A stretch of DNA of 64,000 nucleotides from Bradyrhizobium icense. GTDB taxonomy: Bacteria; Pseudomonadota; Alphaproteobacteria; Rhizobiales; Xanthobacteraceae. Location: NCBI RefSeq assembly GCF_001693385.1, contig NZ_CP016428.1, positions 5,580,001-5,644,000 on the forward strand, given 5' to 3'. Of this stretch, positions 3,621 through 45,218 are shown one piece after another. Each line of letters opens with the position of its first letter. Position 1 is the stretch's first letter. Made by a program: the position numbers and the translations under genes. Under the pieces are notes generated by a model that worked only from the letters and a program-made list of their open reading frames with translations, ran no database searches and was not told where the DNA came from.

Positions 3621-3913
3621 GTTCAGCTACTCCATGCTGTAGGTTGGGAGTTCTCGGCCCTATGCGCCGCACCACATCGTGACTTAATCCGGTCACACTG
3701 GTTTGCAAGAACGGCCAGTGTTGAGATGTATCCAGCGCGATCAACGACAGCGGCACCCGTGATGGAAACGTCAAAGCTTCACTTGATGAAGCCGCGTCAA
3801 CAGTGCAGCCCCCCATGGCGTAGATTTGGATCAGTCGAGCACGCTTCATCTGTCTTTGTAAGCGGGCAGCTGCGGGACCGCCATGATCGCAACAGATCCT
3901 TCACCGTCTCCCA

Positions 3914-3928
3914 GCAATCGGCGTGCCA
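3914..3928 (-). promoter_or_regulatory. sigma-54 (-24/-12) promoter of the formyltransferase-NRPS
   Basis: On the minus strand this reads TGGCACGCCGATTGC, an exact TGGCACG-N4-TTGC sigma-54 element with GG and GC separated by 10 bases. A NifA-type upstream site lies 82 bases further upstream at 4010-4025. The first gene downstream is the NRPS starting at 3620. Confidence 0.8.
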
Positions 3929-12070: not shown

Positions 12071-12233
12071 GTTGCTCTCCGTCAACCTATTGTCAAATAT
12101 TGCGCGGCTGTTCCCGCGCGCTGGTTTCTCTCTCAGAAACGGGCACACGGAGTTAGAGGACGAGAGCATCGCTCGTTACTCGCGTCTGAATGCACTCAGC
12201 TCTCCTCTCACTCAGTGTTGCCGTCTCTAAATA

Positions 12234-12248
12234 GCAATGGCCGTGCCA
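12234..12248 (-). promoter_or_regulatory. sigma-54 promoter of the small-ORF/methyltransferase unit
   Basis: On the minus strand it reads TGGCACGGCCATTGC, an exact TGGCACG-N4-TTGC. The matching NifA site is at 12348-12363. Genes downstream on the same strand are the 46-codon ORF, the 53-codon ORF and the methyltransferase. Confidence 0.8.
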
Positions 12249-16722: not shown

Positions 16723-16874
16723 GTTGTTCTCCATAACTATTGCCAAACGTTGCGCGACTTTTTGCGCCAGCTTATCTCTCTCAGAACGGGGCATACGGGT
16801 TCAAGGGAAGGAGCATCGCTCGTGTTGCGCTCTGGATTCACTAAGCTCTGACTCAGTATCGCTGGATCTCAACA

Positions 16875-16889
16875 GCAACAGCCGTGCCA
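16875..16889 (-). promoter_or_regulatory. sigma-54 promoter of the TlpA-like/exporter operon
   Basis: On the minus strand it reads TGGCACGGCTGTTGC, an exact TGGCACG-N4-TTGC. It is 153 bases before the ATG at 16722 and 98 bases from the NifA site at 16987-17002. Confidence 0.85.
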
Positions 16890-25552: not shown

Positions 25553-26203
25553 ATGAAGATGGCAGCAAGCGAGACAAGCTTTGAGCAATCGGTGATCCTG
25601 ATCGACAACTTCGACTCCTTTACGTTCAACATCGCCCAGATGGTTGGCGAGGTAAATGGTAAAGAAGCCATTGTCTTGGATAACACTGTGCCGTGGAGGG
25701 AAATTCGCAAAATCCCTCATGACCGCATTATTCTCTCGCCGGGACCAGGAAACCCCCAAAATTCAAAAGATGTCGGCTCGACGATGGATGTTCTGGCCGG
25801 CAGCGCCGTTCCGGTCTTGGGCGTGTGCCTGGGACATCAATGCATTGCTCATTTCCATGGCGCAGCCGTGTCCCGAGCACCGGAGCCGCTCCACGGCCGG
25901 ATCCGCAGCATCACAAACTCCGGAACAGATCTTTTCAAGGGGCTGCCGCGTTCTTTCAATGTGACGAGATACCATTCTCTGACAGTGACAGGTGATCTTC
26001 CGCAATGCCTTGAATGCACGGCCATGAGCGAGGATGGCATCATCATGGCGCTGCGCCATCGGCAGCGGCCCCACTACGGCGTGCAGTTTCATCCAGAATC
26101 CATCTGCTCCCAATACGGACGAGAGATCTTTGTCAACTTCCTCTCCGATGCATGCGCCCCGTCGGCAACCCAAGCCTCGCTTGCGGGCCTGGAGGTGGCC
26201 TGA
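25553..26203 (+). CDS. class I glutamine amidotransferase (PabA/TrpG type)
   Basis: The protein has 216 residues; the second ATG at 25559, 6 bases after AGGGA, may be the real start. ILIDNFDSFTFNIAQ, PGPGNPQ, GVCLGHQCIAHFHGA (catalytic Cys) and GVQFHPESICSQYG (catalytic His-Glu) are the standard motifs. It releases ammonia from glutamine for the PabB-type synthase, whose ATG overlaps its stop by one base. It heads an operon of six genes that are overlapping or nearly so. Its association with a PIKGT-type partner points to aminodeoxychorismate rather than anthranilate. Confidence 0.88.
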   Translation: MKMAASETSFEQSVILIDNFDSFTFNIAQMVGEVNGKEAIVLDNTVPWREIRKIPHDRIILSPGPGNPQNSKDVGSTMDVLAGSAVPVLGVCLGHQCIAHFHGAAVSRAPEPLHGRIRSITNSGTDLFKGLPRSFNVTRYHSLTVTGDLPQCLECTAMSEDGIIMALRHRQRPHYGVQFHPESICSQYGREIFVNFLSDACAPSATQASLAGLEVA

Positions 26204-28227
26204 TGACCGAGGACGTGTCGCAACTCCGCGACTTTCCTTTCGAGGCGGTCACCTATGTGGCGAGAAGTTCAACGATCTCATGCGGGGTAAGCGCTGAGGA
26301 CGTTTTCGTGCGCCTCTTCGGGGGTACGCAGCCTGCTTTCTGGTTGGACAGCAGTAGGCTCGTGTCCGGGCTGTCACGCTGGTCCTTCATGGGAGAGCTT
26401 GGCGGGTCACGCAGCTATCTGGCGTCCTACGATGCTTCTCGGCAGGAAATCCGGATCGCGCGCGACGGCCGAGGCTCTCCGACAACCGTCTCCCGATCGA
26501 TTTTCGAGCTTCTTGCCCATAGCCATGCCGCTCACAAGCTGCGGGATCCAGGCGGTGTGCCCGATATTCCCTTTAAAGGTGGCCATGTAGGCTATTTCGG
26601 CTACGAACTGAAGTCTCTGACCTGCGGCGTCAGTTCCCCACCTTCGAAATATCCGGATGCCTGCTTTATCTTCTGCACCAGATTCCTCGCCTTCGATCAT
26701 GAGAATGACCGCATCCACATCGTTGCGCTTTACCCCGAAGCCGAGGCGGCATCCGACGAGGCCGCCCTTTGGGTCAGCAAGACCGAGCGTGACATCGAGC
26801 GCATCGAACCGGCCCCCAGTGTCACACCATCGTCCCCCAACGCAAACAGCGCTCCGCTTCAGTTCAAGCTTCGTCAGAGGCGGGCCCGGTACTTGGAAAA
26901 CATCGAACGATGCCTTTCTGAAATCCGTGCCGGCGAGACCTACGAGGTCTGTCTGACAAACGAGATTACCGTTGAGACAGAGATCGACCCGCTCGGTCTT
27001 TATCGGATCCTAAGACGGAGAAACCCGGCCCCATATTCCGCTTTCCTCAGGCTTGGAAATATCTGTGTTGCCAGCTCTTCCCCGGAGAGATTCCTGAGGA
27101 TCGACAGCAAGCTCATTGTCGAGACCAAACCGATCAAGGGAACCGCGGCTCGACATGCAATCCCGGAGGAAGATGAGCGGATTGCAGAAGAATTGCGCCT
27201 GGACGAAAAGAGCCGGGCGGAGAATCTCATGATCGTGGACCTGATGCGAAATGACCTCGGCCGCATCTGCCGCACCGGGAGCGTTCATGTGCCAAGCCTC
27301 ATGCACATCGAAAGCTACAAAACCGTCCACCAGTTGGTAAGCATCATCCGTGGCGAACTGGCCTCGCCAGACGATATCATCCCCTGCATTTCTGTGTGCT
27401 TTCCGGGCGGATCGATCACGGGGGCGCCCAAAATCCGCACCTTAAAGATTATCGATGAGCTCGAACAAGCACCTAGGGGCGTCTACACGGGGGCGATCGG
27501 CTATTTGTCTCTCTGCGGGGAGGTGGACCTAAACATCGTCATCCGAACTATCGTCTGCCAGGGACGGCACCTGAGCATCGGTTGCGGCGGCGCCATCGTG
27601 GCGTTGTCCGACCCCAACGCGGAGTTCGACGAGATCCTCCTCAAGGCGCGCGAGCCGATCCGTGCAATTGCCGAGGCCGTAACAGGCGACCCGGATCATG
27701 CCCTAGTGATCCATGGCGCAGATAACGATGCGAGCGAGGAAATAGTACCCGATTCCGCACATCGTGTTCGCCTGGCGAGATTCCAGGATCGGGACACTAT
27801 TGCTAAGTGTGTGCAGGCACTTCTCACCGAGCTCGGAGGACCGGGGCCGCAATTCGAGCTACAGGTCGCGGTCGGCGTTGCTGGGCAAATGGCCATGGAT
27901 TCGCGCCTCGGCTTCGCCTTGATAATGGAGAATGTGCCGGCTGCCGAAGTGATCGGCATTGCCGTCGTCTCCCAGGTCTCCGCGGTCAGGGCTTCAGGCC
28001 ATTATGGCGTCCTGCAGGAGCTCTGGGTCGATCCGCGCTATCGCTCGGCTCAACATGGGAGATGGCTTCTGGCGGCCGTGGACCGCGAGGCGCGAGCGCG
28101 GGGATGGCCCATGATCGAGGTGTCTCTTCCCCTGGCCGGCCGCCCCGGCGCCGAGAGGTTGATCGCATTCTATGAGAGCATGGGCTTCACACCTGCGGGC
28201 CAAAGGCGACGAAGGAGGCTGCTGTGA
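26203..28227 (+). CDS. aminodeoxychorismate synthase component I (PabB) fused to a GNAT acetyltransferase
   Basis: Protein of 674 residues from ATG 26203 (MTEDVSQLRDF), preceded by GGAGGTGGCC. Residues about 1-495 are a chorismate-binding enzyme: ETKPIKGTAAR contains the PIKGT lysine (about residue 313) that marks PabB, where anthranilate synthases have PIAGT; DLMRNDLGRI and FPGGSITGAPK are also present. Residues about 510-674 form a GNAT domain (GVLQELWVDPRYRSAQHGRW, EVSLPLAGRPGAERLIAFYE). The first part should make 4-amino-4-deoxychorismate with ammonia from the upstream protein. The fused acetyltransferase may acetylate the new amino group or a later amine. I know of no standard folate PabB with this fusion, so this looks like specialised metabolism. 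Confidence 0.85.
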   Translation: MTEDVSQLRDFPFEAVTYVARSSTISCGVSAEDVFVRLFGGTQPAFWLDSSRLVSGLSRWSFMGELGGSRSYLASYDASRQEIRIARDGRGSPTTVSRSIFELLAHSHAAHKLRDPGGVPDIPFKGGHVGYFGYELKSLTCGVSSPPSKYPDACFIFCTRFLAFDHENDRIHIVALYPEAEAASDEAALWVSKTERDIERIEPAPSVTPSSPNANSAPLQFKLRQRRARYLENIERCLSEIRAGETYEVCLTNEITVETEIDPLGLYRILRRRNPAPYSAFLRLGNICVASSSPERFLRIDSKLIVETKPIKGTAARHAIPEEDERIAEELRLDEKSRAENLMIVDLMRNDLGRICRTGSVHVPSLMHIESYKTVHQLVSIIRGELASPDDIIPCISVCFPGGSITGAPKIRTLKIIDELEQAPRGVYTGAIGYLSLCGEVDLNIVIRTIVCQGRHLSIGCGGAIVALSDPNAEFDEILLKAREPIRAIAEAVTGDPDHALVIHGADNDASEEIVPDSAHRVRLARFQDRDTIAKCVQALLTELGGPGPQFELQVAVGVAGQMAMDSRLGFALIMENVPAAEVIGIAVVSQVSAVRASGHYGVLQELWVDPRYRSAQHGRWLLAAVDREARARGWPMIEVSLPLAGRPGAERLIAFYESMGFTPAGQRRRRRLL

Positions 28228-29225
28228 CCTGGCTAACCGTACACCTGACACCGGCCTCCTCCGGCCCTGCGGGCCTCATCGCCGATGCGACGGGCTCAAT
28301 TAAGTCTTCAAGGGAAGTGGAGGACCGAATCAACGAGATCCGGACGGGATTGCAGAGCTCGCCCGGTGTTCAGTCTATCTCGCCCTCTGAAAACATCGCG
28401 GACAAGGTGATGATGATCCTGGGGAGCCTTCATGATCCAGGTTACCTTGAGGCGCTCCGGCTCGGGCCACATCCACGAGAGCCCGAAATTACCGAGCTTG
28501 CCAGACAATATGCAGCGGCCGGTGTGCCGCAGAACACATCCGTAGACACGGGAAGCTATCAGCGCGCGCTTTTTTCCGCCGCTACCGGCTTCGCAGCCGC
28601 GACCACAATCGCCTCTAAGCGAAGTCCGGTGAGCTACGCACTGTGTCGGCCGCCTGGGCATCACGCGGGGCGCAGCTTCATGGGCGGGTACTGCCTGCTC
28701 AACAACGCTGCTGTCGCGGCCCTGAGCCTGCGCGCGTCGGGCTTCCACAGGCCGGCCATCATCGACCTCGATTTCCACCCGGGCAATGGAACAAGCGATG
28801 TGCTGAGCGCACACCCGGATATCGGCTTCGCCAGCCTGCACGCGAGGACCGACGTCAATTTCCCCTGGATCCCGCAACTTCAACCAGCACTCGGCAGCCA
28901 CAGGTATCTTGAATTTCTGACCGACCCGAGCCCGGCAGAATACATATCGGCGCTTCGCGGGCTTCTGGAATCCGACTGGGCTATCACGCTGGATGTTCTG
29001 GTTGTCAGCTTGGGCTACGATATCGTCGTTGGAGATCCGCATGGCGGCTGGACGCTTCCGCCAGACGTCTACCGAGAAATCGGCCTGGCATTGGCCGCGA
29101 TCGGCAAGCCGATCTGCATCGTACAGGAGGGCGGCTACCGACTGGACGCTTTGTCGGCCTGCGCAGCGCATTTATCCGCGGGCCTGCGAATTGGAATGAA
29201 GGAAACAGGCAGGAGCCATACATGA
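28224..29225 (+). CDS. histone-deacetylase-like amidohydrolase
   Basis: Protein of 333 residues starting at a GTG that overlaps the stop of the PabB-GNAT gene (GTGA). It belongs to the arginase/deacetylase superfamily: YALCRPPGHHA with the tandem His (about 141-148), GGYCLLNNAAVAA, DLDFHPGNGT with the zinc Asp-His (about 183), a second metal-ligand Asp region LGYDIVVGDPHGG and QEGGY at the end. Bacterial members remove acetyl groups from polyamines and other small amines with Zn. Beside a GNAT fusion it suggests acetyl protection and later removal in the same pathway; this pairing is inference. Confidence 0.85.
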   Translation: MTWLTVHLTPASSGPAGLIADATGSIKSSREVEDRINEIRTGLQSSPGVQSISPSENIADKVMMILGSLHDPGYLEALRLGPHPREPEITELARQYAAAGVPQNTSVDTGSYQRALFSAATGFAAATTIASKRSPVSYALCRPPGHHAGRSFMGGYCLLNNAAVAALSLRASGFHRPAIIDLDFHPGNGTSDVLSAHPDIGFASLHARTDVNFPWIPQLQPALGSHRYLEFLTDPSPAEYISALRGLLESDWAITLDVLVVSLGYDIVVGDPHGGWTLPPDVYREIGLALAAIGKPICIVQEGGYRLDALSACAAHLSAGLRIGMKETGRSHT

Positions 29226-29533
29226 ACGACACTTCAGCCCCCGATGCTGGCCTTCTTCCATTTCGAGACCTCATCAACGAGTTGGACAACCAACTGGTGG
29301 AGATCCTCAGCCAGAGACTCTCCATCTGCGCTAAGGTGGCTCGTTACAAGAAGAAGCGCGGGATCGCGATGATGCAACCCGATCGGGTTGCAGAGGTAAA
29401 GGCACGCTGCGCCGAGCTTGGGGCGGAACGCGGCCTGCGCAGGGAATTCACTGAAGATATCTATGATACTATCATAGAAGAGGCCTGCGAACTCGAAGCC
29501 AGGATCATAGACGAGGAGAGGATCCTCTCCTGA
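29222..29533 (+). CDS. chorismate mutase (AroQ type)
   Basis: Protein of 103 residues, all helical. LRFRDLI-type start (PFRDLINELDNQLVEILSQR) with the conserved Arg and the LxxRxxxxxxVxxYKK pattern (KVARYKKKRG), and EDIYDTIIEEAC near the end. It converts chorismate to prephenate by a Claisen rearrangement. Within this operon the likely substrate is 4-amino-4-deoxychorismate, giving 4-amino-4-deoxyprephenate, as PapB does in p-aminophenylalanine pathways. Its ATG overlaps the previous stop (ATGA). Confidence 0.85.
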   Translation: MNDTSAPDAGLLPFRDLINELDNQLVEILSQRLSICAKVARYKKKRGIAMMQPDRVAEVKARCAELGAERGLRREFTEDIYDTIIEEACELEARIIDEERILS

Positions 29534-30111
29534 TGGTCCGCATTTACACGCTCGGCCCGGCGAGAAGCTGTCACCATCATGCGGCCCTCAAATATCTCGA
29601 CTTCCAAGGGATCGAGCTGCGAGACATCATACTCGTTGACGAACTCGTCGCTGCGGCGGCGGAGGCCGCAGATCGCGGAGACAGCTATGTTCTCCAATGC
29701 AGCGCGCACCTGAATGTCCACTTCCTAACCGAGAAATTCCGCAATCGGCTGCAGGTCGTGGACACCTTCATACTGCCTACTCAAAGCATCGCGGTCGTCA
29801 AACGCAAGGATGTGAAGGAGCCTCGGACGCTCGGACTCCCCGAGCCAACGGTGGGGTATATCGACCCAAAAGCATGGAATAAGCTGATTTTCGAAACAAC
29901 AAAGCCGGTTGTAGAGAAAAAACTCCTTGAAGGCCTGTATGATGCGGGGGTTGCTTACAGCAGATCGGCGCTCGAACATCCCGACGAGCTTGAGATCATA
30001 CAGGAGATTGGCGAAGTGGTGACGACGTGGCTGCTATACGGCCCTCGTCCCCGCTATTCGGGCACGATTATCGCCAGCCCCTATCCAGAGTTGCATGACC
30101 TGCTGCCTTGA
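29533..30111 (+). CDS. prephenate dehydratase/BacA-like protein
   Basis: The protein has 192 residues, and its ATG overlaps the chorismate mutase stop. The start MVRIYTLGPARSCHHHAALK matches the TLGPxGTxSxxAA opening of prephenate dehydratases and of the prephenate decarboxylase BacA. AYSRSALEHPDELEII and a PTVGYID stretch fit the periplasmic-binding-like fold. There is no ACT regulatory domain. The length is near BacA (about 200) and shorter than PheA. The catalytic TRF/Thr motif of dehydratases is not evident, which favours a BacA-like non-aromatising decarboxylase or another variant. The substrate is probably an (amino)prephenate. Confidence 0.65.
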   Translation: MVRIYTLGPARSCHHHAALKYLDFQGIELRDIILVDELVAAAAEAADRGDSYVLQCSAHLNVHFLTEKFRNRLQVVDTFILPTQSIAVVKRKDVKEPRTLGLPEPTVGYIDPKAWNKLIFETTKPVVEKKLLEGLYDAGVAYSRSALEHPDELEIIQEIGEVVTTWLLYGPRPRYSGTIIASPYPELHDLLP

Positions 30112-30142
30112 ACACATCACAATAAGCTGAACGAGCACTGTC

Positions 30143-31348
30143 ATGAGCTTATCCCCTCCCGATACGCGAACGAAACTGATCCTTGCCGCTCTGACCATCG
30201 CTGCGTTCGCGATTGGCCTAGATACGTTTGTCGTCATCGGGGCACTCGAAGTGATTTCTCGTGACCTCAAGATTTCAACCGGCGCGGCGGGCTGGATCAT
30301 CTCGATCTACGCACTCTGCTACGCCGTTTTCGCACCGCTGAATGCCTGGATGTTCAAGGCCGTAAGCCGCCGCAATGTCCAGATCCTATCCGTTTCAATC
30401 TTCATCGTCGGCAACCTGATCTGCGCAATCGCTCCGAACTTCCTAACCCTCGCTGCAGCTCGCGTCATTTCGGCCTACGGCGCAGCGATGTTCACCCCGG
30501 CAGCCACCGCACTGGCGGCCGAGCTCCTGCCGCCCGCTCGCAAAGGGTTGGCATTGTCCCTCATCTTCGGTGGCATGACCGTTTCACAGGTTGCGGGTGT
30601 TCCGGCAACCAGCTGGATCGCTGATGCCATCGGCTGGCGTTTCGCCTTCGGTTTCGTCGTCGTTGCCGGGCTTCTCGCATTGCTGATCTTCGCCCCGATG
30701 ATGTCCGGTGTCTCTGCCAAGGCGCCGGAGCGCGGAAACGGTCCGGCTTCGAAAGGCTTCTCCAAGGTCGTCTACGGGATTCTTTCGGTTACGCTATTTG
30801 TGGTTGTCTCCGAGTTCATCGTTTACTCCTATGTGAGCGTCTTCATCACCGGTTCTCTGCTTACCGGTGTGCCGCTGCTCTCAGCCGCTCTCTTTGCGTA
30901 CGGTTTTGGAGCTGTGACGGGAAACGCAGCGTGCGGCTTTCTGACCGATCGTTTCGGCCCCTACAAAGTCCTTATTGCGGCGGTCGGCGCACAACTAATT
31001 CTTCTCGTAGGTTTGGTTGCATTCGGGCACCATGGTGCCTTAACCGTGCTCATCGCTTTTCTTTGGGGCAACGTGAGCTATATGTATCTCGTCCCGATCC
31101 AGCACCGGCTTCTCGGTCTGGCCGGGGACAGGTCGAAGCTCGTTCTGGCAATGAACAGCTCGACCACCTTCGCAGGAATCGCCATCGGCGCTTTTCTCGG
31201 CGGCATCCTCGTCGAAGTCAGCGGGGTCACATCCCTTGCTGTAGGGGCCATCCTGGTCGGCCTCATCGGCGTGGGACTGGCTGTTGCCTTCATGCGCGAT
31301 GTCGCACCCGCAGAAGCTGCGGCTCCGGCATTCCTTAGGTTCGACTAG
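30143..31348 (+). CDS. MFS exporter (DHA1 type)
   Basis: Protein of 401 residues with about 12 membrane segments. AFAIGLDTFVVIGALEVISR (segment 1), ARVISAYGAAMFTPAATALA and a sugar-efflux/drug-efflux-like architecture are visible. It starts 32 bases after the BacA-like gene and is the last gene of the operon. It most likely exports the product of the chorismate-derived pathway, which would also give self-protection. Confidence 0.8.
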   Translation: MSLSPPDTRTKLILAALTIAAFAIGLDTFVVIGALEVISRDLKISTGAAGWIISIYALCYAVFAPLNAWMFKAVSRRNVQILSVSIFIVGNLICAIAPNFLTLAAARVISAYGAAMFTPAATALAAELLPPARKGLALSLIFGGMTVSQVAGVPATSWIADAIGWRFAFGFVVVAGLLALLIFAPMMSGVSAKAPERGNGPASKGFSKVVYGILSVTLFVVVSEFIVYSYVSVFITGSLLTGVPLLSAALFAYGFGAVTGNAACGFLTDRFGPYKVLIAAVGAQLILLVGLVAFGHHGALTVLIAFLWGNVSYMYLVPIQHRLLGLAGDRSKLVLAMNSSTTFAGIAIGAFLGGILVEVSGVTSLAVGAILVGLIGVGLAVAFMRDVAPAEAAAPAFLRFD

Positions 31349-37351: not shown

Positions 37352-40300
37352 ATGCCTACGGAAAATCGATCAGGCAAAAATCAGTTTGTGGAACTTCAAC
37401 CGATCGACGCGATCACCGCGATCGATCGCCTTGCTAGATCGGATCCGCAAAGGGTTGCGCTGAGGTACGGCGCAGACGAACTCACCTACAAAGCGCTGCG
37501 ATTAAGATCGGATGCCCTCGCAAGGACGTTACGAGAGCGGGGCGCTCGCGGCATGGTCGTTGGCTATTGGGGTGAGCGGGACCTCGACTGGGCGACGGCG
37601 GTAGTTGCAATTTTGAGGGCTGGAGCAACATACCTGCCGCTCGATCCATCGTTACCGGCTTCGCGTACATCATTCATGATCGAGCAGAGTCGCTGCGCTC
37701 TGATTATTGGCCCAGACCAGCTGGATTCGCTCAGCCTATGCCAGGCGAGCAGCAAAGGCACCACGCAATTCATAGCGATAGAGGCGGCGCTGCGCGAGGG
37801 CCAGACTTCGCCTGTTGTGCCACCATCGAGCGAGGATGGACTCGCCTACATTCTGTTTACGTCCGGTTCGACCGGCCAGCCTAAAGGCGCAATGATCGAG
37901 CGCGCAGCCCTAAATAATCATTTGGTGGCAAAGATTGATGCCCTAACCCTCACTCGGACGGATTGCATCGCGCAGACGGCATCGCACTGCTTTGACATCT
38001 CGCTGTGGCAGCTTCTGGCAGGGCTTTGCGTCGGAGGCTGTATCGCGATCATTGATGATGCGACACTGAAATCGCCAGTATCCCTTCTCAAAGCAATTCA
38101 AGGGTACGGTGTGACGGTTGTTCAATTCGTTCCGTCGATGCTTGCAATATTTGTTGAATATCTGCAGTCGCTTGCGGCGGCTGAGCGAGCTCTGGACAGT
38201 TTGCGGATTATTTCAACGGTCGGAGAACCTCTAACACCCGGACTGGCGCGTGCGTGGCTTGCCTTATATCCCCGGGTCCCGATTCTCAATCATTACGGGC
38301 CGACCGAGTGCGCGGACGGCGTTACGCATCATCTGGTTTCCGTAGCGCCTGCGCTGGCTGACCCTTATGTGCCGATCGGCAAACAGATTTCTAACCTTGT
38401 GGTTTATGTCGCCGACGGACCGCGGCTGTGCAACACGGGAGAGGTCGGCGAAATCTGTGTTAGCGGCGTTGGTGTCGCCGCTGGTTACGTCAATGATGAT
38501 GTTCGCACCAAGGATGCCTTTGGGCCAAACCCGTTCTCAAACAACCCGTCGTTCCAGCGCCTATACAGGACAGGTGATCTCGGGCGCGTTCGTTCCGATG
38601 GCCTTTTCGAATGTCTTGGTCGACGGGACCGTCAGGTCAAAATCCGCGGGCACAGAATTGAGCTGGGAGAAATCGAGGCCCGCCTCGCCGCTCATCATTT
38701 GGTACGTGGCGCCGTCGCGGTCGCCTCCGTCTGCGCAGGCGTAAAGCTTACGGCGAGAGATATAACCAGGGCCGAGGGGGAAACTGGATCAAGACGACTC
38801 ATCGCGTATGTGTCAGCTCCGGCTGAAGTAACGGAAGGCGAGCTTCAGAACTTTCTTGCCGAAGCGCTTCCCACCTACATGCTCCCAGAAAGAATCATCC
38901 ACCTCGCCAGTATTCCACTGACCAGAAACGGAAAGGTCGATTTTGGAGCATTGCCGGACCCGACCAGTGTTCGCCCTCCATTGCCGACGCCATTCGAGGA
39001 ACCGCAAACAGAGCTCGAAGCCCAGCTGTGTCACATTTGGTCCGGCGTTCTGCGTATTGAGAACATTGGCGTGACGGACCAATTCATAAGCCTCGGCGGA
39101 GACTCGCTCCAGGCAATGCTCATATTGGGCCAGTTGCAGACCCAGCTCGGAGTGAGAACGGATTTCAGGCTGGTCCTGAATGGAACGATCCGATCTCTTG
39201 CGGCTTCGATCTCGGCCCGGGTCGACTCCAAACCGTGCACAGCCCCGACGTACGGAAAGCTTATGCGATCGCCTCTGACGCGAGTTCAGGAGCACCTATG
39301 GTTTCTCTCGCAGCTCGATCCGTCTGCCAGGAACTACATCATTCAAGGCGGCCTGCGAATAAGGGGCATGATCGATCTGGCGGCGTTCAATCGCGCCTGG
39401 ACCGATGTCGTTCATTCCCATCAGGCACTTTCGGCACGCTTTATCGACGAGGACGGTCCGGTTCAGCTTTTTGATACTCCGCAATGCGCAACTCTTGAAT
39501 TGACTGATGCATCTCATCTCACGTCGCAGGAAGCTGAGAAGCTGGTCGCAGAGTTACGGCGAACAGAGCTGAACGGCCGCTTTGATCTCAGCCAAGGCCA
39601 TCTGTTTCGCGCGCGCATGATCCGTTTTGGACCTGATAACCATCTCATACTGATCACCGCTCACGAAATTATCATCGATGCCTGGTCGATCTCTGTTCTA
39701 CTCAGGGACCTTCGACAAAGGTACGCAGATGCCGCGGCGTTCTTGCCGGAGAACCGTGCGTCACTCTCGACCTACGCGGTCTGGGAAACACAACACGCTA
39801 CTCCAGAGGCGCTGGCCAACCAACGTAGCTATTGGCGTCGTCAGATTGGCGATGATCCGCCGGTGCTTTCGTTTGGAACGGGACGAGCGCGGCCGCAGAC
39901 AAATTCCTACCGCGGCGCCTCGCATGCGGTGCTGCTTGGCAGCGAGCTCTCCAATCAGGTACGTGAGTTTGCGCGCCGACATAGGTGCACCACGTCGACA
40001 ACACTCCTGGCATGCTTCAAGCTGCTGCTGCGGACGTATAGCGGTCAGGATGATATTATCGTTGGCATACCGCACGTCGTAAGGGATCAACCTGGCAGCG
40101 CCGAAATTGTTGGCTTTTTCCTGAATATGCTGCCAATCCGCACCGCGATCGATGTCGGCCAGTCCTTTGCGGTTCAAGCCTTGCGCATCCAGGGCCTGGT
40201 CAGCGATGCCATCGCAAATTCGGCATATCCCTTCGGCTGGATGGTAAGGGATACCCGGCTACATCGCGAAGCGGGACGATCACCGATCTTCCAGGTCATG

Positions 40301-43300
40301 TTCAACATGTACTCCGAGGCCGCGGAGCCACTTGGCCAACATGAGTTGGATCTGACATTCCGCGAATATGAGACCGGCTATGTAAAATTCGATCTGACCT
40401 TGTATGCACAAGATCAGGGCGATGAAATTGCCCTCCAGCTCGCGTATGCGGAAGACATATTTTCCAGCGATCTGATTCTCCGCATGGCCGACAATCTGCG
40501 CTGTCTGATTGCAGCCTGCGTTGAGAAGCCGCTTGCGCCCATTAAAGATCTGAGCTGCCTCAGCGCGTCAGACGTCACTATGCTGGACTCGCTGAATAGC
40601 TCGGCGCAGCCATATGAGACTGAATGTCCGCTTATCGAAGCGTTCGAGCAAATCAGCGTCTCAAATCGCAGCCAAGTGGCATATTTTGGTGATTTCGGTG
40701 AGATCACATTCGACCGCCTGCGTGAGCGCGTAACAGCTATCAGGTCGTTACTGCGGGCTTCCGACGTGGGGGCTGGCGATATGGTCGCCATGCTGGTCGA
40801 CCGGACGCCTGACGTGGCCGCTGTCATTCTTGCGGCACGAGCCTTGCAGTCCATTGTTGTCCCTATATCGCCGGATTATCCGCGTGATCGGATCGAACAT
40901 ATCTTGCGAGATAGTCAGGCAAAGCTTTTGGTTCACGCAAATACCTCTGATCTTGGTTTTGACGTGCCGTCGATTTCTCTATTGACCCTTGAAGGGTGCG
41001 GCGCGCCCGCGCACGATTTTGAGTGCAGCGACAAACCATCAGATCAGGGAATTGCGAGCCTCATATACACCTCGTCCTCAACCGGGAAGGCGAAGGGGGT
41101 TCTTATACCGGAATCGGCAATTCTCAATCGACTGAACTGGATGTGGCGACGCTTTCCGTTCGACAGTACCGACGTGATGGTTGTCCAGAAGTCCGCATCA
41201 CTTGTTGCGTCGGCATGGGAGTACTTTGGGGGGCTTCTGAGAGGTGTGCCCACGCTGATCTTGACCCAAGAGCAGTTGCTCGATCCAGATCTGTTGTTGT
41301 GCACGTTGGCGAGACGTCGCGTGACACACTTATTTGCCTCGCCGCCGCTCCTATCCGGCCTCATTGCTTCACAAGAACGGCACCCACGACCGACCGCCTT
41401 GCGGTTGGTCACAAGCAGCGCCGAACCGATGCCTTCTTCGCTCCCGGTTCGCTGGCATGCGTATTTCCCGGACGTCCCGTTGTGGAACTTCTATGGTGCT
41501 ACGGAATGTGCATCCAATGCAGCAGTCTACGAAACATCGGATGCCTACGACGGCTCGTCGCTCGTCCCCGTTGGGCGGCCAATCGATAACGTCAAACTGT
41601 ACGTGCTCGATGCACAGTTGAAGAGAGTTCCTGTCGGGGTCGCCGGCGAACTCTGCATCGCGGGACGCTGCGTGAGCGCTGGGTACTGGCGAGATCAAGA
41701 TAGGACCAACCGCTGTTTCGTGCCGAATCCGTATGATGACGGACAATACAGCGTTCTTTATCGAAGTGGCGATATCGCACGCATCTCAACCAGCGGCCTT
41801 CTCGAGATTTGCGGCCGATCGGACAACCAGGTCAAAGTACGGGGCTTTCGCATTGAGCTGGAGGAGGTCGAAGCGGCCCTTGAGTCTCATCCGGCAATCG
41901 CAAAGGCCGCGGTCGTCGCAGAAGGCGCGGATGACCATCGTCGCTTGACCGCTAGCGTGGTTCCGGCTCGCGACAGTCTAAGCTCTGGAGATATTGTCAC
42001 CCACCTGCGCCACATATTGCCATCCTACATGATTCCCGCCGCCTTCCGTTTGGTTGACACTATCCCCCTTACGGCGAGCGGAAAGATAGATCGTGCTCGC
42101 CTGTCGTCCGTTCCTTACCGCGAGGTCGGGCCTGTTCCATCTGCTGAGCCCCGCACGAGGACGGAGCATATTCTTGCCGGGATCTGGCAGGATCTATTAG
42201 GCGCCAAGTGGGTCGGAATCGATCAGAGCTTCTTTGATATCGGCGGAGACTCTCTTCTGAGCGTGCGCTGCGTCACGCTGGCGCGCAAAGCCGGGCTGAA
42301 TCTCACCGTCGACCAACTCTATCGAACACCGACCATCAGGGAATTGGCGGCAGACGGAGCTGCGGTTACACTCCATAGCTTCCCTTCCGCAGATGGCTCA
42401 TTGCCAGTTACCCCCGCAATCTCATCTTGGTACCGTCTTGTCGGCTTCGATGAGCATTTCAACATCGGCGATCTGTTCTTCTTGCCCGGCGGCGTCCTGA
42501 ATATCCAAATCCTGGAGCGCGCCCTTGCCCATGTCATGGATAGGCACGAAGGCCTCAGACTCCGTATTGCCCGAACCGGCGATGGTCTACGCCTGACAAT
42601 CGGACCTTCCGTGGCCGAACGCCTCGTGGAGGAGATCGATCTTGTCGGAATGAACGGCCTACAGCAGCGTAAGGCAATCGAGAGCATCTCAGCAAGACGT
42701 CAACATACCTTTCGCTTTGACGGCCAGACGTCTCTTGTTAACGCCACGGTGTTCCGCACATCGCAAAGCGGCGATTACTATCTGCTGGTCCTGATGCATC
42801 ATTTTGTAGCCGACGGGATAGGCTATCGACTGTTCCTGGAAGCATTGGATGCGGCGTACAACGCCGTTGCCTCAGGCCACGCCGTGAGTGGTCCTGAGAA
42901 CATACAAATGCTCTCTCCATGGTTGAAGCGCCTTGAGCACTACGCGAACAGCGAAGCGCCAGCCGAACTCAAATACTGGGAGAGCATTGACTACCGTCAG
43001 TTCAATTTACACGTCAGCGCCACTTCATCGGCCGGCGCGAGCTTTTCGAAAGTAACCGCGAGAGAGCTTCACTATGCACGTCTTGAAGGCCGCATGGATG
43101 AAGCGAATTTCCGATCCCTTTGGGAAGATCAGGCCAAGTACCATTTTGAGATTGATAAAGAAGCGACAGCTGATCTCCTCAATATTACAGCCAGATCGGC
43201 GCATTGCCAGGACGTTGATGTGTTTCTAGCCGCCATATCTGGCGCCTGTGGACGCGTTTTCGGCAACTACTCGCTCTGGATTGATAGCCTTACCTCAACT

Positions 43301-43819
43301 CGAGGTCGGCTGTTTGACGATCTCGATCCATCTCAGATCATCGGCTTTATCAGCGAGCTCGTTCCGCTTCCCTTGAGTCTCACCGGAACGGAGCCCCGTC
43401 CCGATCGTGCTCGTTCAATATACCGCCAGCGCAATGCCCTGCCGCGCAGGGGAATAGGCTTTCGGGCCATAAAATTCCTAAACCGAGATCCAGCCGTGCG
43501 GAGCCGGATCGATCGCCTCCCCTTACCCAAAATTGGATTGAATTATCGAGCGGGTTTGCAGCGCCATTTTCCACGCCGTCTCCTAGCCAAGGACCCTTCT
43601 CCACTCTGGGTCGGCGAAGACAGGGATGAAGCGGCCGTGATTCGGCTAATCTGGTTCGATGTCGGATATCAAGCCGGCCATCTACAGATCGAAACGAGGT
43701 ATAATCCAACCGAGATCGGTTATGAGGTGACCCACAATCTTTGCACGGTGTTGCAACAGGAGCTGTTGCAGACGATCAGCGAATTCGGAAGAGCTCGCGA
43801 CACTTTCAACGATGAATGA
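37352..43819 (+). CDS. two-module NRPS (A-T-C-A-T-C)
   Basis: Protein of 2155 residues. A1 (about 15-510): LFTSGSTGQPKGAMI, FDISLWQL, HYGPTECADG. T1: SLGGDSLQAM (about 580). C1 (about 635-1080): the usual HHxxxDG is HEIIIDA (about 770), losing the catalytic second His and the Gly. A2 (about 1100-1590): YTSSSTGKAKGVLI, with no clear FDxS before WEYFGG, and FYGATECASN. T2: IGGDSLLSVR (about 1630). C2 (about 1690-2150): HHFVADG is intact. There is no thioesterase or reductase; release may be by the terminal C domain with an amine or alcohol acceptor. It should assemble two amino-acid units, though C1 may be inactive or do non-standard chemistry. It is coupled to a MATE exporter by an 8-base overlap. 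Substrates are not predicted. Confidence 0.92.
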   Translation: MPTENRSGKNQFVELQPIDAITAIDRLARSDPQRVALRYGADELTYKALRLRSDALARTLRERGARGMVVGYWGERDLDWATAVVAILRAGATYLPLDPSLPASRTSFMIEQSRCALIIGPDQLDSLSLCQASSKGTTQFIAIEAALREGQTSPVVPPSSEDGLAYILFTSGSTGQPKGAMIERAALNNHLVAKIDALTLTRTDCIAQTASHCFDISLWQLLAGLCVGGCIAIIDDATLKSPVSLLKAIQGYGVTVVQFVPSMLAIFVEYLQSLAAAERALDSLRIISTVGEPLTPGLARAWLALYPRVPILNHYGPTECADGVTHHLVSVAPALADPYVPIGKQISNLVVYVADGPRLCNTGEVGEICVSGVGVAAGYVNDDVRTKDAFGPNPFSNNPSFQRLYRTGDLGRVRSDGLFECLGRRDRQVKIRGHRIELGEIEARLAAHHLVRGAVAVASVCAGVKLTARDITRAEGETGSRRLIAYVSAPAEVTEGELQNFLAEALPTYMLPERIIHLASIPLTRNGKVDFGALPDPTSVRPPLPTPFEEPQTELEAQLCHIWSGVLRIENIGVTDQFISLGGDSLQAMLILGQLQTQLGVRTDFRLVLNGTIRSLAASISARVDSKPCTAPTYGKLMRSPLTRVQEHLWFLSQLDPSARNYIIQGGLRIRGMIDLAAFNRAWTDVVHSHQALSARFIDEDGPVQLFDTPQCATLELTDASHLTSQEAEKLVAELRRTELNGRFDLSQGHLFRARMIRFGPDNHLILITAHEIIIDAWSISVLLRDLRQRYADAAAFLPENRASLSTYAVWETQHATPEALANQRSYWRRQIGDDPPVLSFGTGRARPQTNSYRGASHAVLLGSELSNQVREFARRHRCTTSTTLLACFKLLLRTYSGQDDIIVGIPHVVRDQPGSAEIVGFFLNMLPIRTAIDVGQSFAVQALRIQGLVSDAIANSAYPFGWMVRDTRLHREAGRSPIFQVMFNMYSEAAEPLGQHELDLTFREYETGYVKFDLTLYAQDQGDEIALQLAYAEDIFSSDLILRMADNLRCLIAACVEKPLAPIKDLSCLSASDVTMLDSLNSSAQPYETECPLIEAFEQISVSNRSQVAYFGDFGEITFDRLRERVTAIRSLLRASDVGAGDMVAMLVDRTPDVAAVILAARALQSIVVPISPDYPRDRIEHILRDSQAKLLVHANTSDLGFDVPSISLLTLEGCGAPAHDFECSDKPSDQGIASLIYTSSSTGKAKGVLIPESAILNRLNWMWRRFPFDSTDVMVVQKSASLVASAWEYFGGLLRGVPTLILTQEQLLDPDLLLCTLARRRVTHLFASPPLLSGLIASQERHPRPTALRLVTSSAEPMPSSLPVRWHAYFPDVPLWNFYGATECASNAAVYETSDAYDGSSLVPVGRPIDNVKLYVLDAQLKRVPVGVAGELCIAGRCVSAGYWRDQDRTNRCFVPNPYDDGQYSVLYRSGDIARISTSGLLEICGRSDNQVKVRGFRIELEEVEAALESHPAIAKAAVVAEGADDHRRLTASVVPARDSLSSGDIVTHLRHILPSYMIPAAFRLVDTIPLTASGKIDRARLSSVPYREVGPVPSAEPRTRTEHILAGIWQDLLGAKWVGIDQSFFDIGGDSLLSVRCVTLARKAGLNLTVDQLYRTPTIRELAADGAAVTLHSFPSADGSLPVTPAISSWYRLVGFDEHFNIGDLFFLPGGVLNIQILERALAHVMDRHEGLRLRIARTGDGLRLTIGPSVAERLVEEIDLVGMNGLQQRKAIESISARRQHTFRFDGQTSLVNATVFRTSQSGDYYLLVLMHHFVADGIGYRLFLEALDAAYNAVASGHAVSGPENIQMLSPWLKRLEHYANSEAPAELKYWESIDYRQFNLHVSATSSAGASFSKVTARELHYARLEGRMDEANFRSLWEDQAKYHFEIDKEATADLLNITARSAHCQDVDVFLAAISGACGRVFGNYSLWIDSLTSTRGRLFDDLDPSQIIGFISELVPLPLSLTGTEPRPDRARSIYRQRNALPRRGIGFRAIKFLNRDPAVRSRIDRLPLPKIGLNYRAGLQRHFPRRLLAKDPSPLWVGEDRDEAAVIRLIWFDVGYQAGHLQIETRYNPTEIGYEVTHNLCTVLQQELLQTISEFGRARDTFNDE

Positions 43820-45218
43820 GCCGGATGCGGAATTCGTCGTCGAGATCGATCGCGATGTCTCGCCAAAGAAAAAGCAGCACATCGATCTATCGGACTCCAA
43901 TCTCGCGAGTCTTATCCTGCGGCTCGCCATTCCGTCTGTTGTTGGCTTATCGATCAACGCGTTGCAGCAGGTCGTCAACGCGATCTTTGTTGGCGCACTT
44001 GGCACGCAAGCGATCGCAGCTGTCAGCATGACCTTGCCGATCGTGGTCCTGCTCGCGGCAGTCGGACAGGGGATCGGTGTTGGAACAGCGTCGTTCATAT
44101 CTCGTCATCTTGGCGCTGGTGAGTACCTGGAGGCGAGTCGAGGTGCGAGTACTGCACTCGCGCTCGCCGCTCCGATCGGCATCTGCTTTACCATCGCTCT
44201 GCTTCTAAACCTGCGAGGGATATTCGAAACGCTCGGGGCAACTCCAACCATTATGCCCGGAGCGATCGACTACGCGGGTACGCTTTTGTTCGGGTACACC
44301 CTGATGCTTCTTAACATCATCAACGGCTTCATCGTCAGAGCCGAAGGCAACACACGATTCAGCATGTGGACGATGTTTACTGCCTTCATACTGAACGCTG
44401 TGCTTGATCCCGTCTTCATATTCTTACTGGACCTCGGTGTGCGAGGCGCAGCCCTCGCAACGCTGGTATCTCAAATCGCCGCTATTAGCCTGTATATCGC
44501 GTATTTTACGAAGCTTCGCGGGATAGTCCTCGTCAGGATATCTCACATCTCGCTGCGAGCAGATCGCATCAAACAGCTCGCGTTCGTAGGGGCGCCGGCA
44601 ACCATGACCAGTATTTTATCTGCTATTGCCGTTATGCTCTTGTACGGAGCTGCTGCGCCGTTTGGCGACGATTCCATCGCAGCCGTGGGAATAGCTGTGC
44701 GAATCTTGACGATCGGCGCACTGCCTATCACGGGCTTCTGTATAGGCTCTCAAGCTGTCCTTGGTTTCGGTTGGGGCGCACGCGACTTTGCTCGTGTATT
44801 GAAGGCTGCGAAGTTCATGCTCTCCGTGACTGTCGCTCTTTCCGTCGCTTATTCTGTGGCCGTTGTGATTTTTGCCCGGCCTTTGGTCAGGCTGTTCAGC
44901 GATAGCGATAAGGTCACGGAAATTGCCGTCTCGACCTGCATCGTCTTCCATCTCTTTTTTGGACTTTTCGGTATTCAGAGTGTCGTGACGACAATGCTTC
45001 AGTCGTTCGGGAGAGCACGCCTCAGTGCGGTTGTGTCCTTGGCTAGGCAGGGCTTTCTCTTCATACCGGCCGTACTGTTATTCCCGGTCATATGGGGTTT
45101 CAACGGACTGTTGGCCAGTCAAGCAATTGCTGAGCTGGGCGCCGGAATGATCGCGCTGTTCGTCATGTTCCGCCAGTTCGCTGAGCTCAATCGAGCGCTT
45201 CTGGATGCTCAGTCTTGA
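43812..45218 (+). CDS. MATE-family exporter
   Basis: Protein of 468 residues with about 12 membrane segments in the two-bundle MATE/NorM pattern (LAIPSVVGLSINALQQVVNA, VGQGIGVGTASFISRHLGAG, a repeat AFVGAPATMTSILSAIAVML in the second half, and FCIGSQAVLGFGWGARDF). It exchanges cations for amphipathic solutes. Its ATG lies inside the last codons of the NRPS, so both are translated together. It is the obvious exporter of the NRPS product. Confidence 0.9.
   Translation: MNEPDAEFVVEIDRDVSPKKKQHIDLSDSNLASLILRLAIPSVVGLSINALQQVVNAIFVGALGTQAIAAVSMTLPIVVLLAAVGQGIGVGTASFISRHLGAGEYLEASRGASTALALAAPIGICFTIALLLNLRGIFETLGATPTIMPGAIDYAGTLLFGYTLMLLNIINGFIVRAEGNTRFSMWTMFTAFILNAVLDPVFIFLLDLGVRGAALATLVSQIAAISLYIAYFTKLRGIVLVRISHISLRADRIKQLAFVGAPATMTSILSAIAVMLLYGAAAPFGDDSIAAVGIAVRILTIGALPITGFCIGSQAVLGFGWGARDFARVLKAAKFMLSVTVALSVAYSVAVVIFARPLVRLFSDSDKVTEIAVSTCIVFHLFFGLFGIQSVVTTMLQSFGRARLSAVVSLARQGFLFIPAVLLFPVIWGFNGLLASQAIAELGAGMIALFVMFRQFAELNRALLDAQS

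Follow-up and report, generated by a model that had tools for sequence, protein, structure and literature searches.

Biotin synthesis is an antibacterial target, and warheads of the amiclenomycin type inactivate BioA, the free ring amine of the warhead being the group that would react with pyridoxal phosphate (PLP). A one-carbon extension has reportedly been claimed for the amiclenomycin side chain by Montaser and Kelleher in 2020. The pathway to bacilysin starts from prephenate and requires BacB and BacD. We have analyzed a 64,000-nucleotide stretch of the genome of Bradyrhizobium icense (NCBI RefSeq assembly GCF_001693385.1, contig NZ_CP016428.1, positions 5,580,001 to 5,644,000; hereafter the window, to which coordinates refer), which carries six intact genes on the + strand at 25553-31348, encoding PabA, a PabB-GNAT fusion, an HDAC-like deacetylase, an AroQ-type mutase, a BacA-like protein and an MFS exporter. 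As judged from its sequence, this operon is probably the Proteobacterial version of the amiclenomycin-warhead pathway, leading to a short-chain product. The gene set is not new, since an antibiotic family already known has this core for its warhead; what is apparently new is the host, the PabB-GNAT fusion and the absence of chain extension. No publication on the operon in rhizobia was found in the literature searched, which is no proof of absence given that most subscription papers lay outside it.

Streptomyces avidinii, S. virginiae and further Streptomyces carry PabAB, GNAT, HDAC, AroQ and BacA-like genes in an order identical to that of the window, all of them homologous. The S. avidinii locus is flanked by two avidin-family genes (C18:32030 and C18:68441) that are 36.4 kb apart. 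Since this spacing matches that of the published stravidin operon sta, which lies between two streptavidin genes ~36 kb apart (PMC13336041), we take the S. avidinii reference locus to be the stravidin cluster. Stravidin 8 of S. avidinii contains an N-acetyl-amiclenomycin residue (PMC13336041), with the acetyl group presumably on the ring amine because the alpha-amine is engaged in a peptide bond of stravidin 8; genes for a GNAT and a deacetylase are both present in the cluster. The first-pass annotation of this DNA knew of no pathway with the whole set, a view that did not hold up, as the stravidin cluster shows these same genes to have been already assigned to a characterised metabolite. Downstream, the Streptomyces cluster (as represented by S. 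virginiae and S. avidinii proteins) encodes homocitrate-synthase-like, FemAB-like, aconitase, Iso_dh (isocitrate/isopropylmalate dehydrogenase-like) and class-IV aminotransferase proteins, which fit the one-carbon extension mentioned above. BioA proteins over the NCBIfam cut-off number two in S. avidinii, one of them beside the cluster, and one in the window genome, about 240 kb off.

All six genes of the window are open throughout. The first encodes a PabA-like glutamine amidotransferase of 216 residues (25553..26203, +; PF00117, E=1.1e-47) with GVCLGHQ and HPES motifs, for which an alternative start at 25559, the position used by two compared relatives, is possible. It is followed by the fusion (26203..28227, +) of PabB, i.e. 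aminodeoxychorismate synthase component I, in residues 1-492 with a GNAT acetyltransferase in residues 493-674, the Pfam domains being Anth_synt_I_N, Chorismate_bind and GNAT (PF00425, PF13508/PF00583). Against the NCBIfam pabB model (TIGR00553) the protein scores 363.9 bits, above the cut-off of 328.4, and it contains the PIKGT motif, which we take to denote the aminodeoxychorismate type. A PabB start at 26014, from a mechanical list of open reading frames, was rejected, the true start being 26203. The HDAC-family deacetylase (333 residues; 28224..29225, +; PF00850, Hist_deacetyl, E=1.6e-44) keeps the HH, DxDxH, GDP and EGGY positions upon alignment with relatives, and its top-scoring solved structures are HDAC6 and acetylpolyamine amidohydrolases. 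The AroQ-type mutase (29222..29533, +; PF01817, CM_2, E=2.8e-21), a predicted 4-amino-4-deoxychorismate mutase, has an MMQPxRV-type block in common with the mutases of stravidin clusters, and a GNAT block is likewise conserved between the window fusion and its relatives; the residues concerned (HDAC metal site, glutamine amidotransferase, PIKGT, mutase and GNAT blocks) are presumed to be catalytic. The fifth gene (29533..30111, +) encodes the BacA-like protein, a predicted non-aromatising 4-amino-4-deoxyprephenate decarboxylase, and the sixth (30143..31348, +) a Cmx/CmrA-like MFS exporter (PF07690, MFS_1, E=2.2e-43). As the first-pass annotation had noted, the genes from the amidotransferase through the BacA-like gene overlap by 1 or 4 bases: the PabA stop (26201-26203) and the PabB ATG (26203) by 1, the PabB stop ending at 28227 and the HDAC GTG (28224) by 4, the HDAC stop ending at 29225 and the AroQ ATG (29222) by 4, and the AroQ stop ending at 29533 and the BacA-like ATG (29533) by 1. 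The chain of overlaps ends there, because the MFS gene starts after a gap of 31 bases.

Based on this gene content, we surmise that PabA and PabB would convert chorismate to 4-amino-4-deoxychorismate, that the mutase would turn the latter into 4-amino-4-deoxyprephenate, and that the BacA-like protein may decarboxylate this intermediate with the ring kept non-aromatic. The fused GNAT would acetylate the ring amine of an early intermediate, thereby guarding against elimination and protecting the cell; since it is the free ring amine that would react with PLP, acetylation would mask the warhead. A housekeeping aminotransferase would form the amino acid, the HDAC-like enzyme would remove the acetyl group to free the ring amine and the MFS protein would export the product. 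Because chain-extension genes are not in the operon, this product would be shorter than amiclenomycin, most likely 3-(4-aminocyclohexa-2,5-dien-1-yl)alanine (calculated [M+H]+ 183.113) or its N-acetyl form (225.123), vs. 197.129 for amiclenomycin, and it is probably an inactivator of BioA or another PLP enzyme. This scheme retains three proposals of the first-pass annotation as the best available reading: the sequence from aminodeoxychorismate through amino-prephenate to a BacA-like step, in keeping with the same genes in the stravidin cluster and with a model of the prephenate dehydratase (PDT) fold; an acetylated intermediate that is deacetylated later, in keeping with N-acetyl-amiclenomycin in stravidin and the GNAT and deacetylase of its cluster; and export by the MFS protein.

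The role of the BacA-like protein deserves separate consideration. Its predicted structure is of the PDT fold, and a non-aromatising decarboxylation of (amino)prephenate is inferred for it because it is homologous to the protein of the stravidin cluster. By sequence it would not be classed as a prephenate dehydratase: the window protein has no Pfam match even at E<=1, and among the 37 aligned members of a family profile, built from the window protein and 36 out of 99 hits, PF00800 matched only one (E=0.26). The TRF motif is absent from the window protein and the letters TRF occur anywhere in 2 of the 37, vs. TTW in 35. For comparison with prephenate dehydratases nine PDT loci were fetched, two of which (L103 and L109) were dropped by a motif filter. 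Homologues of about 30% identity are found in apparent amino-acid ABC-transporter operons (by eye) of three Bradyrhizobium (L072, L073 and L074, about 1480-2130, +), possibly another use of the fold.

With the BacA-like profile we retrieved 47 loci, two of which (L048 and L050) come from one contig, and assigned their content by best tblastn match within the stretches examined. PabA, PabB, GNAT, HDAC, AroQ and BacA-like genes are collinear in 15 of the 47; an MFS match directly follows the BacA-like gene in 8 of these (with interrupted frames in some, L004, L005 and L009), lies upstream on the other strand in 5 Streptomyces, and 2 others remain. Another 20 loci are incomplete, truncated at the ends of contigs, decayed or rearranged. 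The core set occurs in Alpha- and Gammaproteobacteria, cyanobacteria, Clostridium, Acidobacteriota and Solirubrobacterales, and a midpoint-rooted concatenated tree of 25 loci places Bradyrhizobium, Lonsdalea, Stappia and a Rhodobacteraceae assembly in one clade with 100% support. A search with the GNAT end gave 18 proteins, all PabB-GNAT fusions, those named being from Bradyrhizobium and Lonsdalea; the length limits of this search exclude free-standing GNATs. A class-IV aminotransferase is instead the fusion partner of the GNAT in a cyanobacterium of the Nostocales and in an acidobacterium, and the occurrence of the GNAT in two different fusions argues that acetylation belongs to the pathway. 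In a Saccharospirillum copy (L034:10492-13669) the operon is followed by an EamA transporter, an ATP-grasp protein and a class-IV aminotransferase, a neighbourhood that suggests a dipeptide product.

A number of observations weigh against the assignment to an amiclenomycin-type pathway and temper our confidence in it. Protein identity between window and Streptomyces is modest (32-48%, about 30% for the MFS), and the operon has no aminotransferase gene, so that transamination would have to fall to a general enzyme. A profile search of solved structures with the BacA-like protein gave no significant relative (best E 0.18), and hhalign against prephenate dehydratases reached a probability of 52% in local mode, with no result in global mode. 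The BacA-like gene stands alone within the stretch examined in 12 of the 47 loci, so the family may have other roles; these loci (L015, L017-L021, L026-L029, L047 and L049) are by title mostly Solirubrobacterales and other Actinomycetota. In favour of the assignment, the pairwise distances computed for each of the six proteins are correlated with one another (r=0.81-0.95, 18-22 loci, three near-duplicate loci having been removed), with shared descent of the hosts uncontrolled. A number of copies in Bradyrhizobium are broken, the HDAC frame being interrupted in B. australiense and in B. archetypum, and the PabB frame in the latter as well.

As for the length of the product, the extension trio (homocitrate synthase, aconitase and Iso_dh) was found in 6 of the 47 loci, all Streptomyces; neither the 64-kb window nor the examined stretches of the 41 non-Streptomyces loci gave a match at E<=1e-6. 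Points against a short chain come from the window genome itself, which has six HMGL-family genes, one of them a NifV homocitrate synthase (over the NCBIfam cut-off, ~55 kb from the operon in the nif/fix region, and 41% identical to the Streptomyces homocitrate-synthase-like protein), as well as six matches to the chain-extension dehydrogenase. With these genes, extension in trans by NifV/LeuA, LeuCD and LeuB-type enzymes is possible in the window strain, which would then make true amiclenomycin with the warhead as in Streptomyces. We consider this rather unlikely, recognizing that extension genes are clustered in 0 of 41 loci outside Streptomyces over the stretches examined and that, in a genome-wide search of 12 genomes, only a single dehydrogenase match, presumably LeuB, was present in each of the seven from Stappia, Lonsdalea (two), Saccharospirillum, Clostridium and cyanobacteria (two), vs. 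two in an acidobacterium and four to six in four Bradyrhizobium. A non-extended product is thus likely for the group; for Bradyrhizobium, whose genome also has NifV, we are less sure. A departure of another kind would be a p-aminophenylalanine-type route to an aromatic amine, as for chloramphenicol, given that PapA/B/C pathways share aminodeoxychorismate synthase and mutase, and that the exporter resembles chloramphenicol exporters, albeit below the cut-off (NF033135, E=3.6e-44, 151 bits vs. 400). This appears quite improbable, as no PapC-like dehydrogenase is present among the six operon proteins by Pfam and the fifth protein, modelled in the PDT fold, is homologous to one of the stravidin cluster.

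The PabB of the window scores as a pabB equivalog and folate terms appear in the annotation of its counterpart on plasmid p187_1, raising the question of whether the operon merely supplies folate or p-aminobenzoate. This explanation is in our view highly improbable, and the possibility raised in the first-pass annotation that PabB-GNAT serves folate only is therefore hard to sustain: the window genome encodes one more PabB that exceeds the NCBIfam cut-off, with a PabA-like gene next to it on the downstream side, no aminodeoxychorismate lyase is recognisable by Pfam among the six operon proteins, and the mutase, deacetylase and exporter would be left without a role. Nor does the operon look like a housekeeping folate route, because a BacA-like gene of >=90% identity is found in only 4 of 265 Bradyrhizobium genomes (those of the window, B. 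archetypum, B. australiense and sp. 132). A decaying operon that makes nothing would account for the broken frames described above, for remnants in other Bradyrhizobium and a Sinorhizobium, and for two promoter patterns that gave nothing at the operon: no sigma54-type site with <=2 mismatches lies between 23147 and 30570, and the one tts-box-like match in the window is at chance level. We hold this explanation to be improbable as well, since the copies in the window, in sp. 132 and on p187_1 are open in all six genes and the ratio of nonsynonymous to synonymous substitution rates (dN/dS) is 0.11-0.33 for all six at 84-89% nucleotide identity, the window being compared with the two other intact copies. 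The operon genes are under purifying selection, and low dN/dS together with recurrence of the set across phyla indicates that the operon is more than chance.

The window is part of a symbiosis-type (nif/fix) region: downstream of the operon come an electron transfer flavoprotein alpha (FixB-like) gene and NifV, at a distance of about 53-55 kb, and NifB, at about 91 kb, and the window contains a transposase gene; the intact copy on p187_1, from a nodule isolate, shares its stretch with nolL. BacA-like matches occur in 11 of the 265 Bradyrhizobium genomes, which besides the four of high identity comprise 4 with a broken or incomplete gene and 3 with a distant homologue (about 30%). The interrupted frames of B. 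australiense and B. archetypum imply that the operon has been gained and lost. Upstream of it, good alignment between the DNA of the two Bradyrhizobium lineages is limited to roughly the 40 bases nearest the operon (by eye). Elsewhere in the window there are three exact sigma54-type (-24/-12) matches, all on the - strand (3913-3928, 12233-12248 and 16874-16889), ~0.1-0.7 kb upstream of minus-strand frames, one of them before a thioredoxin-like TPR protein.

We also looked at avidin-like genes in Bradyrhizobium. At E<=0.001 there is none in the window genome, with a search that recovers a pair from every one of 5 Streptomyces and has matches in 121 of the 265 Bradyrhizobium genomes. An avidin-like open frame (L110:8076-8507, -, contig C86), 144 codons long and with a signal-peptide-like start, lies in Bradyrhizobium sp. 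132 on the 97-kb contig of the operon, about 21 kb past the MFS gene. For B. australiense and B. archetypum, the avidin-family match is on a different contig from the operon. The sp. 132 gene is absent from the 45 kb examined on either side of and across the p187_1 operon, from the window and from the flanks of the window that were examined, and has no close match among plasmids. This linkage echoes the Streptomyces arrangement; a single linkage may be chance and, because avidin-like genes are so common, we regard it as a lead and not as proof. A two-module nonribosomal peptide synthetase (NRPS) followed by a MATE exporter (37352-45218, +; two AMP-binding, two PP-binding and two Condensation domains by Pfam, with no thioesterase match) was considered as a partner of the operon and rejected. 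In B. australiense and B. archetypum the beginning of the NRPS is found again, downstream of the operon; however, the C-terminal part is matched in 64 of 265 Bradyrhizobium genomes vs. 11 of 265 for the BacA-like gene and sp. 132 has the operon without the NRPS, so that the two look independent. A manual reading of its adenylation codes pointed to no clear substrate, and in the second adenylation domain the usual binding-pocket Asp seems absent (by eye).

Taken together, we tentatively envisage that the core operon makes short-chain aminocyclohexadienyl amino acids in many phyla, amiclenomycin being the extended Streptomyces branch, and that in Bradyrhizobium symbiosis regions the product might be an N-acetyl-masked, mechanism-based inactivator of PLP enzymes for competition in nodules or roots or for action on the host, with acetylation and export as self-protection. 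Rhizobitoxine, a PLP-enzyme inactivator, is a precedent for such a role. A secreted avidin-like protein may cooperate with the product, in sp. 132 at least, as streptavidin does with stravidins. With the distribution described here, a supposed Streptomyces speciality becomes a core pathway across several phyla, in which warhead formation is separated from chain extension and acetylation is tied to the warhead through two gene fusions; as a compact six-gene operon with predicted masses, it is directly testable. If a rhizobium does make such a compound from its symbiosis region, a new question on nodule competition would arise, as would the question of why avidin-like genes are present in nearly half of the Bradyrhizobium genomes searched.

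Compared with known systems, the window resembles bacilysin synthesis in having a PDT-fold protein without an ACT domain as presumed decarboxylase, but differs in that aminodeoxychorismate genes stand ahead of it and no BacB/BacD-type partner is present among the six proteins. In contrast to PapA/B/C pathways, it has a BacA-like protein, a GNAT and a deacetylase, and no PapC-type dehydrogenase. As for the stravidin cluster, Streptomyces joins PabA to PabB and has a free-standing GNAT whereas the window fuses PabB with GNAT, and the extension, FemAB-like and aminotransferase genes, as well as the second BioA and the flanking avidin genes of S. avidinii, are on the Streptomyces side only, so that the window does not appear to be a full stravidin cluster. 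On the other hand, PabA, PabB, GNAT, HDAC-like, AroQ and BacA-like proteins are homologous and in the same order, with an MFS gene close by, and with aminodeoxychorismate synthase, GNAT, HDAC-like, AroQ and BacA-like genes clustered and their catalytic residues kept, the window has the makeup of an amiclenomycin core.

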